IMG/VR virus record: IMGVR_UViG_3300033571_012949
Location: 1 to 22,526 of that record
DNA length: 22,526 bases
Source of the DNA: a virus
Direction: 5' to 3' (one strand)
Part shown: positions 8,591 through 22,526 of the stretch, piece after piece
How positions within the stretch are numbered: position 1 is the first letter of the stretch
How the letters are laid out: every line of letters starts with the position of its first letter
Made by a program: the position numbers and the translations under genes
The notes under the pieces: generated by a model
What the model was told of the DNA's origin: nothing
What the model saw: only the letters and a program-made list of their open reading frames with translations
Database searches by the model: none

Positions 8591-8938
8591 ACCCCATGAA
8601 CTCACCCCGGCCGAAGTGGGCGGTGAGGGCCGGTTCCTCCAATTTGGGGGAACCGAGGGGTTTGGGGGAACCGAAAAAACCCTTGCGCGCCAACGCGGTT
8701 CCCCCAGGTTCCCCGGTTCCCCCAAAAAACGAGACAACATTATATGTACCCCCACACCCCTAAACCACTTTCACTCTTTCTCTTTGGAGGAACTGGAGGA
8801 ACCAGAGGAACTACGTTGAAATGACATAGGAAAAATAGGTTCCCCCGGTTCCCTATTCGACATTGTGGGGGAACCGCCGCAGACTCACCCCTGCGCACAC
8901 CCAGACACCCCCTCGCGCCCTTCGTTCAGGAGGGCCGA
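8591..8938. repeat. GGRGGAACCG repeat array, candidate replication origin
   Basis: This 348-base gap between divergent genes carries about twelve copies of a 10-base word. Exact GGGGGAACCG (either strand) lies at 8646-8655, 8664-8673, 8696-8705, 8714-8723 and 8867-8876. Variants lie at 8631-8640, 8706-8715, 8786-8795, 8795-8804, 8804-8812, 8837-8846 and 8846-8855. Those at 8786-8812 are a perfect-period 9-base tandem. Between the clusters are AT-richer stretches (around 8724-8748 and 8818-8840, with ATTATATG), unlike the surrounding GC-rich DNA. Repeats in both orientations with an AT-rich segment, next to primase and DnaA-like genes, resemble an iteron origin. A partition or multi-site operator is the alternative. 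Confidence 0.6.
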
Positions 8939-9265: not shown

Positions 9266-9372
9266 GCCGCGACGCCATCGCCGAGCTGCTCGCTTTCGTC
9301 GCCGCCGGGTTTGCCATCGTGTTCCTGGGCGGGCTCGCGCTGATCCTCTTCGCCGCAGGAGTTCTGCCATGA
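9262..9372 (+). CDS. Tiny single-span membrane protein (36 aa)
   Basis: Reads MSRDAIAELLAFVAAGFAIV followed by FLGGLALILFAAGVLP. Almost all residues from 8 on are hydrophobic, giving one long or two short membrane helices. It overlaps both neighbours by ATGA, and this is the main evidence that it is translated. It lies between the Ala-rich protein and the regulator. Function unknown. Confidence 0.5.
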   Translation: MSRDAIAELLAFVAAGFAIVFLGGLALILFAAGVLP

Positions 9373-10049
9373 CGCTCACCCCACGCGACCAAGCTGCCGC
9401 CGTCATCCGGCGCGCGGCGCATCTGACGGGCTGCACGCCGGAGGATGTCGTTGGCCGCAATCGGCTCCCCGCTGCGGACCTCGCGCGCGTCAAGGCGTAC
9501 CGCGCGCTGCACGAAGACTATGGGTGGAGCATCGCCCGCATCGCCCGCTTCTTCGGCCGCGAGCGCTCGCCGGTCCGGCGCGTCATCGCCGCGGCGCGCG
9601 AGCGGGGCGTCGCCCTGCGCGATCCTGTCGTCCGCACGCCAGACGAACGCGCCTATGAACGCGCTCTCGACCGGCTCGAGGACCTCGAGGATTTCGTCAA
9701 GCGCATCACCGGCCAGCACCTCGTCTACGCCCTGCGCGACCGGCTCGGGCTGCCGATGTGGCAGGCTCTGCCGCTCGCCATCATCGTCGAGGCGCACCCG
9801 CGCGTCGTGTCGATGGAAGGCGTTTGCGAACAATACGAATGCGCGGCTGAGCAGTTGAGGTTCGGGCAGGGGCAGCCGATCTCGTCCGCGCTCGTGAAGG
9901 TCGCGGTGTCGAAAATCCGGACTCGGTTCAATAAGCTGGGCCTCGCGGACCCGATCGTCTCAATCCGGCCCAATGGGTTCCGCGTGAGCGCCGATATGCA
10001 CCCGTGGTTCGTTGCGAATTTCGGGCTTGATACCGTGCGCGGGCGGTAG
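9369..10049 (+). CDS. DnaA domain IV-like / OmpR-type winged-helix regulator
   Basis: 226 residues starting MTLTPRDQAAAVIRRAAHLT. Residues 12-78 follow the pattern of DnaA domain IV: TGCTPEDVVGRNR, ARVKAYRALHED, GWSIARIARFFGRERSPVRR. The DnaA box-reading signature DHTTV is replaced by ERSPV (65-69), so a different DNA target is expected. A charged helix (DERAYERALDRLEDLEDFVK, 92-111) links to a second domain at about 128-207. It contains PLAIIVEAHPRVVSMEGVCE and VKVAVSKIRTRFNKLG, then IVSIRPNGFRVS, the recognition helix and wing of OmpR/PhoB/CtrA-type domains. There is no AAA+ ATPase and no receiver domain. It is the last gene before the late block and is followed by twin palindromes, so it could be the late-gene activator or an origin-binding protein. 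Domain calls are by eye. Confidence 0.78.
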   Translation: MTLTPRDQAAAVIRRAAHLTGCTPEDVVGRNRLPAADLARVKAYRALHEDYGWSIARIARFFGRERSPVRRVIAAARERGVALRDPVVRTPDERAYERALDRLEDLEDFVKRITGQHLVYALRDRLGLPMWQALPLAIIVEAHPRVVSMEGVCEQYECAAEQLRFGQGQPISSALVKVAVSKIRTRFNKLGLADPIVSIRPNGFRVSADMHPWFVANFGLDTVRGR

Positions 10050-10051
10050 GG

Positions 10052-10123
10052 GTCATAGCTGTGACGCTCAACATCGGCCCCGCATCAGCGCTCGCGCTTG
10101 GGGGTGTGGGTCATAGCTATGAC
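10052..10123. promoter_or_regulatory. Pair of 14-bp palindromes, candidate operators
   Basis: GTCATAGCTATGAC at 10110-10123 is a perfect palindrome. GTCATAGCTGTGAC at 10052-10065 is the same with one change. The two are 58 bases apart and both are preceded by G. They begin two bases after the stop of the DnaA-like/winged-helix gene and lie about 165-235 bases before the first late gene. The simplest reading is a dimer-binding operator pair for a regulator, perhaps the one encoded just upstream. No convincing -35/-10 pair is visible with them. Confidence 0.6.
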
Positions 10124-10287
10124 TCACTACGCAGCGCCGACATCTTCCGTTCCCGGCGCTTTCATGTACCTCTCAGATGCGCTCCTCTGCGCGGCCTCGC
10201 CCGATGCGGTCCGGCTCGCGTGAGGAGCAAAGCGGCGCTAGCCCCCTCGCTTCCGCGTAGGGGAGCGCACAAAACAGGAGACGCGTC
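10124..10287 (+). other. Structured non-coding leader before the late operon
   Basis: No convincing gene is present. Nested inverted repeats dominate: GCGCTCC (10179-10185) with GGAGCGC (10262-10268), GCTCCTC (10181-10187) with GAGGAGC (10222-10228), and a hairpin CCCCTCGC-TTCC-GCGTAGGGG at 10243-10263 with one bulged T. The first two pairings are mutually exclusive, so the transcript could switch between a short and a long stem. No T-run follows, so it is not a simple Rho-independent terminator. An AGGAGA at about 10276 serves the next gene. A late-leader or antitermination-like element is possible but unproven. Confidence 0.4.
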
Positions 10288-18993: not shown

Positions 18994-19520
18994 TGTCCCT
19001 TCTGCTCCTCTTCCGCGGCGAAGCCTCGCCACCCCCGACGCCGACCGAAGACGTCGCGACGAGCCGCTACCAGCTGCGCCTGGCCGCAGAGCGCCGCGCA
19101 CGCGTTGAGGCTGGCCGCGCTGCTTGGCGGCGTATCACGGCGGTCGGGCAGTGGAGCGATCTGCGGGAAGAGGTTGCGCAGTCGGCGCGCGCGTACTCGC
19201 GCGGCGCGCTCGAGACGCTGCCGGCCGAAGACGCGATGGCGTTCGACGCGTGGGAAGCGTGGCGACCGCGGACCTTCGCGCTGCTTGAGGCGGAAGCTGA
19301 CGCCGTCGAGGCGCGCGCTGCCGCGCGGAAGCGACAGGTCGAGGCGGATCTAGCCGCAGCGAAAGAGGCGCGACGCCAAGCGTGGGTCGCCAAGCAAGAA
19401 GACGAAGCTCGCCGCGGAGCGGCTCGCGCGTTGCGGGAAAAGCAAGCCGCGGTCGCGGCGGCGTCGATCGCTGCGGCCGAGGATGACGAGGAGGCGGCGA
19501 TCATGCTGTTGCTGCTGTGA
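18993..19520 (+). CDS. Coiled-coil structural-region protein with LLLL ends
   Basis: 175 residues starting MSLLLLFRGEASPPPTPTED and ending EEAAIMLLLL. Between the two leucine runs lies a long, charged, Ala/Arg/Glu-rich coiled coil (about 25-160). The first residues, MSLLLLF followed by Pro-rich sequence, recur at the start of small phage structural proteins. Both hydrophobic ends flanking a rod suggest a linker that docks at each end, which is inference. Coupled to neighbours by TGATG and GTGA overlaps. Function unknown. Confidence 0.6.
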   Translation: MSLLLLFRGEASPPPTPTEDVATSRYQLRLAAERRARVEAGRAAWRRITAVGQWSDLREEVAQSARAYSRGALETLPAEDAMAFDAWEAWRPRTFALLEAEADAVEARAAARKRQVEADLAAAKEARRQAWVAKQEDEARRGAARALREKQAAVAAASIAAAEDDEEAAIMLLLL

Positions 19521-19810
19521 CGAAGAAGGCTGCGCCGAGCGGCGCGCCAGCGCCCGATCCCATCACAGTCAACGCGATCCGCGCGGTGTTCCGCGGCACG
19601 GCGTCGCCGGGCCAGCAGAAGCGCGCGATGGTCTATCTGCTCAACGATCTCGGCGGCGTGACTGCGATTGAGGGCGCGGGGCTGAGCGCGGAGGAGCGCG
19701 CCTTCGTGGCGGGCCGGCGCTGGGTCGCCATGAATTTCGCGATGCTCGGCGGGGCACGGCTGATCGGCTTCGATCCGGAGCCTGACGCCGCGCCGGAGAC
19801 CGCGCGCTAA
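19517..19810 (+). CDS. Small phage protein, Bbp19-like (97 aa)
   Basis: From a GTG at 19517 overlapping the previous stop. Read MTKKAAPSGAPAPDPITVNA then IRAVFRGTASPGQQKRAMVY, LLNDLGGVTAIEGAGL and EERAFVAGRRWVAMNF. The pattern of a short helix, FxGT-x-x-G-Q, a leucine-rich helix and AGRRxVG/A matches the small Bbp19-like proteins encoded between portal and scaffold in BPP-1-type podoviruses. I recognise this by pattern and position only. Probable head or connector accessory. Confidence 0.6.
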   Translation: MTKKAAPSGAPAPDPITVNAIRAVFRGTASPGQQKRAMVYLLNDLGGVTAIEGAGLSAEERAFVAGRRWVAMNFAMLGGARLIGFDPEPDAAPETAR

Positions 19811-19825
19811 CCAACCGCTCTACGC

Positions 19826-19844
19826 GCTCCCGTCATCTGGGAGC
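19826..19844 (+). promoter_or_regulatory. Hairpin directly in front of the scaffold start codon
   Basis: GCTCCC (19826-19831) and GGGAGC (19839-19844) can pair around a 7-base loop GTCATCT, and the stem ends on the base before the ATG at 19845. The only Shine-Dalgarno-like bases (GGGAG) are buried in this stem and sit too close to the ATG for normal use. Translation of the scaffold may be limited by this structure or depend on coupling to the upstream gene. Confidence 0.5.
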
Positions 19845-20762
19845 ATGACACTTGAAGCACCCTCTGCACCGACTTCCGGCGATGGCGTCCCTCCCACCCA
19901 GCCTGCGGCGCCGGTTGGTGGCGCGCCGGCCTCTGGCGTTTCAGAACCCTCGCCAGATGCCGGCGCTGCTGCCGACGATTGGCGCGCGTCCTGGGCCGAT
20001 GCGCTGAAGCTGGACGAGAAGGGGCGCGAGCGCCTTGGGCGCTTCAACGCGCCGCATGAGGTGTGGAACAGCTACCTCAACGCCGAGCAGAAGCTGAGCG
20101 ATCGGCGCGCGGTTCGCATCCCCGACGCCAACGCGACGCCGGAAGAAGTCGCGGCCTGGAACAAGGCGCGCGGCGTTCCGGACACACCGGACGGCTACAA
20201 GGTCGACGTTGCGCCGCCGGAAGGCCTTGAGCTTGGCGATAGCGACAAGGCAGTGCTCAAGGCGCTGACGGTCGAGGCGCACAAGCGCGGCTTCGATCCT
20301 GGCGTCGTGAACTTTGCGCACGAGTTCTTCTATCAGCAGGCGGCGGAAGCTGCGGCGCAGCAACTGGCGCGCGCGGACACTGCGGCGGCTGACGCCGAGA
20401 AGGCGCTGCGCCGCGAGTGGGGTCGTGAGTACGACACCAACGTCAAGTGGGCGTCGGCTGCGGCGACGCAGTTTGGCCTTGGTGAAGCGCTCAACGCCGT
20501 CATGGCCGATGGCTCGCGCCTTGGCGACAACCCAGTCGTCATCAAAGCGATGGCGCAGATCGGGCGTCTGAACGCCGAAGACCCGTTCATGCTGCAAGCC
20601 GCCGGCCAGGGCAATGGCAAGGGCGTCGAGGATCGCAAGCGCGAGCTGATGGAGCTGCGTCGCACTGATCCAGGGCGGTACGCGAGCAGTGAGGTTCAAG
20701 CCGAGTTGGAGCGCATCAACACTGCGCTCGCCCGGCGTCAGGAATTGGCCGGCGCCAGATAG
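19845..20762 (+). CDS. Scaffolding protein
   Basis: 305 residues, ATG at 19845 as no in-frame start lies nearby. The first 45 residues are a disordered Pro/Ala/Gly/Ser stretch. Then comes the motif WADALKLDEKGRERLGRFNA, FNAPHEVWNSYLNAEQKLSD, and PDANATPEEVAAWNKARGVP, DTPDGYKVDVAP. This is the opening of phage capsid-assembly scaffolds of this gene order. The rest is a largely helical, charged protein (EAAAQQLARADTAAADAEKA). It directs prohead assembly and is removed before DNA entry. It is immediately upstream of the capsid gene, as usual. No protease domain is visible. Confidence 0.82.
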   Translation: MTLEAPSAPTSGDGVPPTQPAAPVGGAPASGVSEPSPDAGAAADDWRASWADALKLDEKGRERLGRFNAPHEVWNSYLNAEQKLSDRRAVRIPDANATPEEVAAWNKARGVPDTPDGYKVDVAPPEGLELGDSDKAVLKALTVEAHKRGFDPGVVNFAHEFFYQQAAEAAAQQLARADTAAADAEKALRREWGREYDTNVKWASAAATQFGLGEALNAVMADGSRLGDNPVVIKAMAQIGRLNAEDPFMLQAAGQGNGKGVEDRKRELMELRRTDPGRYASSEVQAELERINTALARRQELAGAR

Positions 20763-20928
20763 GCGTCGGAGCGTGCGCGCGCGGCTTTCCGGCGATCGCC
20801 GCGCGTAGCACCTGGCTGGCAACCCGACTGCGGTCGGCCCCGCCCCGATAGGAAGGACGACGCGCGGCCCTCATGAGGCAACCCGCGCGGCGACCGGCAT
20901 CGCCATCGAGTAGACGATGGAGGCCGCA
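20763..20928 (+). other. Highly structured leader before the capsid gene
   Basis: No gene. Visible elements are a perfect palindrome CGGCGATCGCCG (20790-20801), and GCGCGT (20801-20806) able to pair with ACGCGC (20860-20865) around a branched loop. That loop contains a CCGAC-TGCG-GTCGG tetraloop hairpin (20824-20837). There are also a palindrome CCTCATGAGG (20869-20878) and a repeated word GGCAACCCG at 20818-20826 and 20877-20885. The strong GGAGG (20919-20923) that decides the capsid GTG start is at the 3' end. The gap is the longest inside the structural block and lies exactly where capsid output must be raised relative to scaffold. A promoter, mRNA-stabilising structure or regulatory RNA is inferred. 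Confidence 0.5.
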
Positions 20929-21777
20929 GTGACGGTCAACCTTATTACGTCCCAGTTCCGGACGCAGTTTTTCGACGAGTTCAAAATGGACTTCGACCGC
21001 AACCAGGCGCTCCTGCGCCAGACGGTGCGGTCGGATGGTCTGGTGCGTGGTGACACGGTTCGCTTCGACATCGTCGATCCGGCGGATACGGCCAACACGC
21101 GTGGCCGTGACGGCGCGATCCCGCTCTCGCAGCTTGGCCTGTCTCAGGTCACGGCGACGATCCGTGAGAACTTCAAGAAGTACCAGATCGACGATTTCGA
21201 CCTGTTCCGCGCCAACCCGAACACGCGCAACGCGATGATCAAGCGTGGCGTGGGCTCGATCAACAAGTCGGTCGATCAGCTCATCATCAACGAGCTGGAC
21301 ACCACGGTGACGCAGGTGTCGGGCACGGCGGCGGCGCTGTCGACGCTGGCGCAGGTGTCGTCGTGGATCACGACGCTGCTCAACAACGACGTCGCGCGCG
21401 ATGGTCGTCTGTGGGCGGTGATCACGCCGAACGCCGAGTTCCAGATGATGAAGATCAATGAGTACAAGTCGTCTGACTTCATTCGGATCGAGAACAAGCC
21501 CGCCGCCCAGGACGTGGTGCCGGGCTATCGCTCGTGGCTCGGCGTGAAGTGGCTCGTGCATACCGGCCTGACGGGTCGCGGCACGAACAACGCGCAGTGC
21601 TATATGTACCACGAGGACGCGCTCGGTCACAAGATCGACGGCGATCCGACCGTGCATCCCTACTACTACGAGCCGGAAGACCGGTACGAGTGCTGGGTGC
21701 GCGTGCGCCACGCCGCGCGTGTGGTGCTTCCGCGCGGCGTCTGCCGCTTCCGTCACGACGACACGGCCGCGTTCTAA
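20929..21777 (+). CDS. Major capsid protein
   Basis: 282 residues from a GTG at 20929 (read MTVNLITSQFRTQFFDEFKM). I chose it because GGAGG ends five bases before it; an in-frame ATG 12 bases upstream would place that Shine-Dalgarno inside the gene and has no good site of its own. Motifs of the podoviral capsid family (P22/BPP-like, HK97 fold) are DFDRNQALLRQTVRSDGLVR, GDTVRFDIVDPADTANT, ENFKKYQIDDFDLFRANPN, and LWAVITPNAEFQMMKINEYK. The end is positive and compact (RVRHAARVVLPRGVCRFRHD). It forms the icosahedral shell. The scaffold gene upstream and a small possible decoration protein downstream agree with this assignment. Confidence 0.85.
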   Translation: MTVNLITSQFRTQFFDEFKMDFDRNQALLRQTVRSDGLVRGDTVRFDIVDPADTANTRGRDGAIPLSQLGLSQVTATIRENFKKYQIDDFDLFRANPNTRNAMIKRGVGSINKSVDQLIINELDTTVTQVSGTAAALSTLAQVSSWITTLLNNDVARDGRLWAVITPNAEFQMMKINEYKSSDFIRIENKPAAQDVVPGYRSWLGVKWLVHTGLTGRGTNNAQCYMYHEDALGHKIDGDPTVHPYYYEPEDRYECWVRVRHAARVVLPRGVCRFRHDDTAAF

Positions 21778-21789
21778 GGAGCACTCACC

Positions 21790-22116
21790 ATGCCGTACGA
21801 TACTCGTTATCTTGCTATCAAGCAGCACATCCCGAACGAAGTCGGGGGCCAGGAATGGTGGTACGACACGACCGACGCGGTCACGGTCGTGCGCGCCGCG
21901 AACTACATCACCGACGCCCTCGCGCGCGGGATGGAGAAGGGTGACATCATCTGGGTCCGTGTGTGGTCGGCCCTGCCGAACACCTCCACGGCTAAGCAGA
22001 CGGCGGTCGCCACAGCGCCTACGTTGACGGGCATTCAGCAGATGCTGGTGCTCGGCGTGACGTCGGCCGGCGCTGACTTGTCGGACGGCTCGGCCATCAC
22101 GGCGACGAACACGTAA
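21790..22116 (+). CDS. Small virion protein downstream of capsid
   Basis: 108 residues starting MPYDTRYLAIKQHIPNEVGG, with AAGGAG upstream. The protein has QEWWYDTTDAVTVVRAANYI, TDALARGMEKGDIIWVRVWS and a Thr/Ala-rich C-terminus. The pattern of a beta-rich fold with a motif GMxxGDxIxV occurs in short proteins directly after phage capsid genes, thought to be decoration or head-stabilising proteins. It is followed by two hairpins and a T-run, so it is the last gene of this transcription unit. Assignment by position and pattern. Confidence 0.65.
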   Translation: MPYDTRYLAIKQHIPNEVGGQEWWYDTTDAVTVVRAANYITDALARGMEKGDIIWVRVWSALPNTSTAKQTAVATAPTLTGIQQMLVLGVTSAGADLSDGSAITATNT

Positions 22117-22177
22117 GCGGCCTAACCAGCCGCTCACTGAGACGGGCGATGGTTCATCATGGGCCATCGCCCGTTTT
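22116..22177 (+). terminator. Tandem hairpins with Rho-independent terminator
   Basis: AGCGGC (22116-22121) pairs with GCCGCT (22129-22134) around CTAACCA. Then an 11-bp perfect stem, ACGGGCGATGG (22142-22152) with CCATCGCCCGT (22164-22174), is followed by TTTT (22174-22177). This is a classic intrinsic terminator at the end of the capsid cluster. The adjacent first hairpin is unusual but may add strength. Confidence 0.8.
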
Positions 22178-22192
22178 CCGTTTGGAGGGTTC

Positions 22193-22526
22193 ATGCCGCC
22201 GGTTCGCGCTATTCCGAAGTCACTGGATCTGGAGGTCGAAGGCTCGTTCCGCGGGCGCTTCTACTGCCGAGTCCCGGTCGAACACGGGCCGGAGGCGGTG
22301 GCCGCGCCGGCTTACTTTGGCGACGAGGCCGCGAAGACGAAGCTGCGCGAGGGCGACCGGATCGAGGTCGAGCCCGAGGATATGTCGTGGATGGGCGAAC
22401 TGGTCGTGCGCGCAATCGTGCTGCCGTCGCGCGAAGTCGTGACGCGTTGGGTCGTGGGGCCGATTATGTTCGACGTGCCAGCGACGGACGCGGGCGATTT
22501 CAATATTTCCTGGCGCGGCAAGGCCA
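22193..22526 (+). CDS. Hypothetical phage protein, 3' end beyond the right edge
   Basis: The ATG at 22193 follows GGAGGG. It is open to the window end, 111 residues: MPPVRAIPKSLDLEVEGSFR, GRFYCRVPVEHGPEAVAAPA, then EVVTRWVVGPIMFDVPATD and ISWRGK. The visible part is beta-rich with a GDRIEVEPED turn and no signal peptide. It begins a new unit after the terminator, although read-through is possible. Family not recognised; a tail or head-completion protein is expected at this position in podoviruses. Confidence 0.65.
   Translation, partial: MPPVRAIPKSLDLEVEGSFRGRFYCRVPVEHGPEAVAAPAYFGDEAAKTKLREGDRIEVEPEDMSWMGELVVRAIVLPSREVVTRWVVGPIMFDVPATDAGDFNISWRGKA

Follow-up and report, generated by a model that had tools for sequence, protein, structure and literature searches.

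Comparative evidence for a pseudoknotted leader element with two matched modules upstream of phage capsid genes

The capsid gene and its leader

We analyzed a 22.5-kb virus fragment from IMG/VR (67.6% G+C); its whole stretch of 22,526 nucleotides is called the window below. Protein matches indicate genes for an exonuclease, RecT, a helicase, a primase-helicase, the terminase small and large subunits, a head-tail adaptor (portal), a scaffold/protease-like protein and a major head protein. No tRNA genes were found in the window. The protein encoded at 1533-2138 matches GcrA (E 9.6e-24), a cell-cycle regulator of alphaproteobacteria; the match suggests that the host of this phage is alphaproteobacterial.

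A first-pass annotation of the window, made from its sequence alone, had described the leader of the capsid gene as the only sizeable gap between structural genes. This description is confirmed for the stretch that runs from the portal gene through the gene following the capsid gene, where the leader is the sole large gap and all other neighbors overlap or lie 12-34 nt apart. The capsid gene probably starts at GTG 20929, which we prefer to the listed ATG 20917 because the N-termini of related proteins align at the GTG; the ATG is upstream of the Shine-Dalgarno sequence. The features of the locus are as follows, where those inside the leader are predicted by the comparisons described in later sections.

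19845..20762, + strand: scaffold/protease-like gene (phrog_458 protease, E 2.8e-7; phrog_3742, E 1.2e-39)
20763..20928, + strand: untranslated leader from the scaffold-like gene to the capsid gene (ORF table; gap kept in most relatives)
20773..20811, + strand: predicted hairpin P1 (constrained fold, partner-swap test, pair counts)
20778-20785 with 20798-20805, + strand: P1 inner stem (partner-swap z -10.8)
20773-20776 (GTGC) with 20808-20811 (GCAC), + strand: P1 outer stem (partner-swap z -4.7)
20791..20796, + strand: predicted pseudoknot strand GGCGAU in the P1 loop (pair counts, RNAalifold, G.U and A-U variants)
20814..20844, + strand: predicted hairpin P2, module copy 1 (fold, partner-swap test, covariation); the A strand GGCAACCCG (20818-20826) comes first and the B strand GGCCCC (20836-20841) second
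20861..20889, + strand: predicted hairpin P3, module copy 2 in the opposite polarity (fold, partner-swap test, letters matching copy 1); the B strand (20866-20870) comes first and the A strand GGCAACCCG (20877-20885) second
20899..20904, + strand: predicted pseudoknot tail AUCGCC, partner of 20791-20796 (swap and variant data, pair counts, RNAalifold)
20903..20920, + strand: possible extra hairpin CCATCG / CGATGG (by eye)
20919..20923, + strand: Shine-Dalgarno sequence GGAGG, five bases before GTG 20929 (role from sequence inspection)
20929..21777, + strand: major capsid protein gene (PHROG 3437 major head protein, E 3e-39; Pfam Phage_capsid_2, E 8.6e-23)

It is nearly certain, judging from the comparison of relatives, that the leader element consists of three hairpins, two of which carry one and the same 4x1 internal-loop module, and of a pseudoknot that joins the P1 loop to the tail. 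The asymmetric internal loop shared by P2 and P3 reads GG-CAAC-CCG opposite GG-C-CC. The P1 stem and the pseudoknot use separate bases, and therefore both can coexist. The possible hairpin at 20903..20920 shares positions with the pseudoknot tail and borders on the Shine-Dalgarno sequence; by eye, something like it is present in a few close relatives only (e.g., L243, L247 and L362).

Features of the single sequence and their chance level

The first-pass annotation had called the leader highly structured and listed a 12-bp palindrome (CGGCGATCGCCG at 20790-20801), a 10-bp palindrome (CCTCATGAGG at 20869-20878), a 6-bp stem closing a branched loop with a TGCG tetraloop hairpin (CCGAC-TGCG-GTCGG at 20824-20837), the word GGCAACCCG at 20818 and again 59 bases later at 20877, and the Shine-Dalgarno sequence GGAGG. 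All of these features are present, but their meaning changes in part. The palindromes arise incidentally from the P1 loop and from P3, the supposed branched loop is really hairpin P2 with its 4x1 internal loop, and the repeated word is real and corresponds to one strand of the module found in two hairpins of opposite polarity. The pseudoknot between 20791-20796 and 20899-20904 had been missed, so that the earlier account of the structure was incomplete.

Taken alone, these features are unimpressive when compared to chance. The folding energy of the leader is no better than that of shuffled sequences (z -0.30; 68 of 200 shuffles are as good), and we accordingly dropped folding energy as evidence of structure. 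A repeated 9-mer occurs in 62 of 270 stretches of the same length, the word GGCAACCCG (with at most one mismatch) is found at the chance rate across the window, and palindromes are mildly enriched, with one of 12 bp seen where 0.08 were expected. Because such single-sequence features are weak, the case had to be decided with relatives. A listing of the relatives' leaders reveals that the palindromes are not kept, while the stems, internal loops and pseudoknot are.

Relatives and covariance models

No DNA similarity to isolate phages or phage records was found, and direct queries of viral contigs with the capsid or portal gave no matches. The related viral-contig loci came from a terminase query and from profile searches, which yielded partly overlapping sets of loci that we kept (80 for the portal, 45 for the terminase, and 80 + 80 + 42 for the capsid). 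A search of genome contigs with a window-type capsid profile found no relative. In most of the 40 capsid-matched loci, the capsid gene is preceded by a gap of roughly 50-315 nt; the gap is short in Hodr (39 nt) and MT838907 (19 nt), and our script found none in L024. In the Hodr record (L004, OQ414635.1) the locus tags bear the name of another phage, Baldr. A further record, PQ492659.1 (L006, Limnohabitans phage DC33), has Inoviridae in its taxonomy line; since this 39-kb record encodes terminase and head-tail adaptor matches, the taxonomy is probably misfiled.

Side-by-side reading of the gaps in the clade of the window (capsid identity about 42-55%) revealed a common plan. From 5' to 3', the first hairpin contains GGCGAU in the loop and the second has a GGNNAACCCG-like A strand followed by GGCCCC; after a linker comes a third hairpin in which the strand order is reversed, and then a tail that ends in AUCGCC. 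We built a first covariance model, R1, from 21 sequences with 20 pairs. The window, itself a training sequence, matches R1 at 20761-20904 with 85.7 bits (E 3.9e-17). Over 100 sources, R1 gave six strong matches (E <= 3.3e-11), namely the window, L008, L009, L088, L089 and L091, and the next match had an E of 0.33. A search of 92 sources yielded 48 matches, of which 39 had E <= 5.2e-7 and the other nine E >= 0.041. A lack of conservation among related phages had been named with the first-pass annotation as a refutation; these searches gave the opposite result and support its view of a structured capsid-gene leader: 39 of the 40 loci L213-L252 have one strong match each, located just upstream of the capsid gene and on its coding strand, although many of the 39 are training sequences or copies of them; L213 (partial), L251 and L252 were outside the training set. 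The exception, L242, begins inside the capsid gene. Nine loci fetched later provided a clean test, and the element is present in seven of them, with scores of 65-80 bits (E <= 6.4e-14). The other two, L361 and L363, match R1 weakly (E 0.05 and 0.09), yet both modules can be read in them. At 1310-1500 of these two loci there is an insertion inside the P2 loop, and the tail reads UCGCAA.

These comparisons show an element of about 130 nt that is linked to the capsid gene in cis; each phage has a single copy, immediately upstream of that gene. L008 and the training sequence L228 come from opposite ends of one contig. This 54-kb contig, IMGVR_UViG_3300048839_000345, has the element at both ends (L008 16881-17021; L228 3-143), and its end repeats therefore cover the element.

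Support for the stems and the pseudoknot

We folded 21 sequences one by one under a constraint that kept GGCGAU and AUCGCC free. P1 and P2 were mostly returned, and P3 was returned in most sequences; several sequences gave other folds for parts of P2 or P3 (e.g., L216, L221, L225 and L228). We also used a partner-swap test, in which the duplex energy of each genome's own strands is compared to that of strands exchanged among genomes (N=30). For the inner and outer stems, respectively, z was -10.8 and -4.7 in P1, -7.6 and -4.7 in P2, and -5.1 and -7.3 in P3, with -9.5 for the whole P3 stem. A closing stem below P3 was unsupported (z -1.4), and six mispaired controls ranged from -0.9 to +1.4. 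An earlier run with N=21 agrees, its controls ranging from -1.9 to +1.7.

We also counted pairs in an alignment, A9, of 30 sequences and 30 pairs. Of its cells, 82.3% are paired, compared to 73.5% in shuffles and 33-48% when strands are slid; 21 pairs have changed on both sides (14.0 in shuffles), there are 93 compensatory cells (43.3 in shuffles, with 0 of 500 as high), and the covariation score is 0.262 versus 0.138. None of 500 shuffles reached the real value on any of the five measures, where it should be considered that kinship of the sequences inflates such shuffle-based scores. The count for P1 is low (58%), which we think results from a register shift between genomes, as the alignment was not fitted to P1. 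Thus, structure-supporting substitutions, whose absence had likewise been named beforehand as a refutation, are present in both the stems and the pseudoknot.

RNAalifold, which was not told of the pseudoknot, picks the GGCGAU-AUCGCC helix along with P2 and two P3 pairs. All counted cells of the pseudoknot are paired across the 30 sequences, and at one point G-C has become A-U through changes on both sides. Its outer pair is G.U in three of the 30 (L238, L241 and L244), and the next pair is G-C in L345 and L352, G.U in L351 and A-U in L349. Over 3.3 kb, L349 and L351 share 97.6% identity, and their elements differ by a single base, which is in the pseudoknot. L251, which is misaligned at this point, has GGCGAC with GUCGCC, i.e., a U-A to C-G exchange, and L363 by eye has UUGCGA with UCGCAA. 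Overall wobble counting favors no strand (G.U makes up 90 of 1103 pairs for the coding strand and 70 of 1086 for the opposite one), and individual stems disagree: the P1 inner stem favors the coding strand (37 versus 7) and the P1 outer stem the opposite one (4 versus 30). Considered alone, the pseudoknot favors the coding strand, with G.U in 4 of 30 and A.C in none.

Modules that match within a genome

The A strand of the module varies by genome (CAAC, CUAC, UUAC, UUAU and others), and within a genome P2 and P3 agree. On average, 7.0 of 8 letters match within genomes compared to 5.3 after swapping, a level reached in 0 of 10000 permutations, and in 21 of 30 genomes, where 2.5 were expected, P2 and P3 have the same letter at all five variable positions. 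This last count is lowered by four rows that look out of register (L215, L217, L218 and L226). The permutation ignores descent, and its numbers thus overstate independence; yet many module types obey the rule. The opposite strand follows suit: rows with UAUCC (L228, L232 and L238) have GGACC in both hairpins, and most others have GGCCC.

The pair L232 and L236 is instructive, as their DNA is 90.6% identical and their module letters differ together in both copies. The capsid proteins of L232 and L009 are 99.65% identical, and L009 and L236 are identical in DNA. This comparison argues against the capsid protein as the reader of the module letters; recombination of the P2-P3 segment could also explain it.

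Variants in a wider clade

Leaders in a wider clade contain on average 1.5 GGNNNCC words each, compared to 0.4-0.5 in coding controls. Such words within the same leader are identical more often than in shuffles (0.18 versus 0.068; 0 of 2000), and the same measure is not significant in three coding controls. Under a strict two-word pattern, i.e., two GGNNACCC-like words 18-48 nt apart, 41 of 106 distinct wider-clade leaders qualify; shuffles gave a mean of 0.3 and at most 2, and the coding control gave 1 of 106. A central hairpin is supported by partner swaps (z -5.6). We rejected a long-range pairing, suggested by eye, of the first GGCCCC with the last GGNNACCCC, for which swaps of the flanks gave z 0.9 and 0.0.

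Module order and polarity differ in this clade, and more distant capsid relatives often lack modules. By eye, hairpins in the rhizobial loci L311-L315 and L320 have the strand order of P2 in the window. In some of the loci L311-L315, further copies of the module are apparent upstream of about 4870, beyond the two copies closest to the capsid gene. Contigs of Rhizobium, Mesorhizobium, Chelativorans, Pelagibacterium and Serratia marcescens are among the named carriers of the capsid relative (29 loci).

A second covariance model, R2 (30 sequences, 24 pairs), found nothing significant among 100 wider sources, where the best E was 0.037, or among 32 sources of which 29 were genome-contig loci (best E 0.019). 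Several weak R2 matches are located in the capsid leader, and we regard them as no more than suggestive. The genome of L301 contains two R2 matches (E 5.9e-4 and 0.004), one of which we take as chance, as it sits among ordinary chromosomal ORFs.

Known families, terminators and literature

The first-pass annotation could not place the leader in a known riboswitch or terminator family, and our searches agree. At the curated gathering score, Rfam 15 has no matches in the window, 15 relatives and 10 further loci. A permissive scan of 20650-21050 returned only Cupriavidus-1, on the other strand and with 16.3 bits versus a threshold of 45.5. No intrinsic terminator (a G+C-rich hairpin followed by a T run) is present in 20763-20928; the nearest terminator-like site on the + strand, 20948-20964, is inside the capsid gene. 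Similarly, we found no sigma-70-type promoter-like site in 19000-22526, and no sequestration of the Shine-Dalgarno sequence as a general feature among relatives.

A literature search found no description of the element, which could still be contained in a 2017 survey of 224 candidate RNAs or its supplements. The passages on phage in PMC2864571 and PMC8040213 do not describe it. The element is apparently undescribed, both in this phage and in its many relatives. The P22 scaffold protein is said to autoregulate; our search of the literature on scaffold autoregulation returned nothing on phage.

Possible function

Comparison establishes the fold; RNA as the working form, a partner and the direction of control are what we infer. 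In view of the position of the element, its pseudoknot and its matched modules, the simplest reading would be an operator contacted at both modules by one partner. We estimate the probability at about one half that the element is a cis-acting operator of this kind, with a single partner reading both modules. Control would probably be translational, and would probably set how much shell protein is made. The element would act as RNA within the mRNA leader, and its modules would be two half-sites for the partner, most simply a dimeric or multivalent protein. This might be the scaffold, the capsid protein, some other protein of the phage or one of the host. Whether the partner is bound or not might decide if the pseudoknotted fold is stabilized or melted, and so alter either ribosome access to the capsid message or the life of that message. 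As a result, the level of capsid protein could differ from that of the upstream scaffold gene on the same transcript.

Other explanations must be considered. The compact fold might mark or protect the 5' end of a processed capsid mRNA, such that the capsid message, for which the need is greatest, outlives the scaffold part and the modules are nuclease- or fold-stabilizing motifs. The element is indeed flanked by adjacent late genes with different needs, the leader lacks a terminator and the region of the ribosome-binding site (RBS) after the tail is short (24-72 nt), but a role in processing or stability leaves unexplained why the modules within a genome need to match, and we regard it as unlikely. 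If the modules instead touched each other, the match would be structural and no external reader would be needed, which fits both the agreement of copies within a genome and the joint difference of L232 and L236 despite near-identical capsid proteins. Such docking of internal loops is improbable, given that a fixed contact would hardly allow the module order and polarity to differ as they do in the wider clade.

It is also conceivable that each module binds one small ligand or ion, as in two-site riboswitches, for we do find two like modules, whose letters change together, in a compact pseudoknotted leader. Most riboswitch pockets are strongly conserved, whereas the module letters vary widely (16 type pairs in 30 genomes); moreover, the element precedes a virion gene and has no Rfam match. 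We thus consider tandem aptamers quite improbable. Least credible, and in our view very improbable, is a role at the DNA level or in trans, with the element serving as a hairpin site in DNA or as an independent small RNA, e.g., in packaging. The overall wobble counts do not fix the strand and in that respect would permit such a role, but the element without exception immediately precedes the capsid gene and is oriented like it, and the pseudoknot variants use G.U on the coding strand.

Returning to an operator read by one partner, we can extend it, tentatively and at somewhat less than even odds, to a new and widespread family of phage leader RNAs in which a co-evolving partner reads a matched pair of modules, each phage having its own, and thereby sets capsid output. 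Among Proteobacteria (Rhizobium, Mesorhizobium, Chelativorans, Pelagibacterium and others), phages and probable prophages have variants with other module orders and polarities ahead of their capsid genes.

Comparison to known systems

Glycine-type tandem riboswitch aptamers have two like binding modules per leader, with pockets that are strongly conserved across species; in contrast, the letters of the window-type modules drift between genomes and match within them. An MS2-type coat-protein operator is a single hairpin of an RNA phage that represses the replicase gene, and is similar in being an RNA site whereby a virion protein could limit translation. The rpsO (S15) operator is not known to have twin modules. 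According to the mention of it in PMC3014915, this E. coli operator contains a pseudoknot. It thus shares with our element a pseudoknot in a translational operator of a structural component's mRNA, and it differs in that the binder is a ribosomal protein and the gene is bacterial.

The closest parallel is the operator of T4 gene 32, which in the relevant passages of PMC3014915 and PMC535899 consists of a pseudoknot of about 28 nt followed by UUAAA repeats, and is bound by gp32. As described there, it is like our element in that a pseudoknot is located in a phage mRNA leader upstream of the RBS, an arrangement that comparative evidence also supports here, and both diverge between related phages. 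The T4 pseudoknot is 67 nt upstream of the RBS, and in our case, over 29 loci, 24-72 nt separate the end of the tail from the capsid start. Unlike the T4 operator as those passages present it, our element has about 130 nt, three hairpins and two matched internal-loop modules, is G+C-rich and precedes a capsid gene. Inspection of 20905-20928 revealed no T4-type UUAA(A) repeats between the pseudoknot and the start.

To our knowledge, the post-transcriptional setting of the capsid:scaffold ratio in tailed phages is little understood, and proven pseudoknot operators in phage leaders are few. T4-type gene 32 is described in a 2010 review as perhaps the only viral translational autoregulation by a pseudoknot (PMC3014915). 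The present element is a compact example with natural variant pairs (L349/L351 and L232/L236), and its matched-module rule predicts which changes one partner should tolerate. If a partner were found, it might be a phage protein in a previously unseen role of RNA binding, and the matched modules could provide a collection of mutually distinct RNA-protein pairs.

Other repeats in the window

Two further repeats were observed in the window. The gap after the primase-helicase gene (8643-8726) contains an inverted repeat of the words TTTGGGGGAACCG and CGGTTCCCCCAAA, which are 84% complementary. A 31-nt unit with the near-palindromic sequence GGTCATAGCTRTGAC occurs twice (10042-10072 and 10100-10130), 58 nt apart; the pair is situated at the end of an HTH-like gene (9369-10049) and resembles an operator pair.
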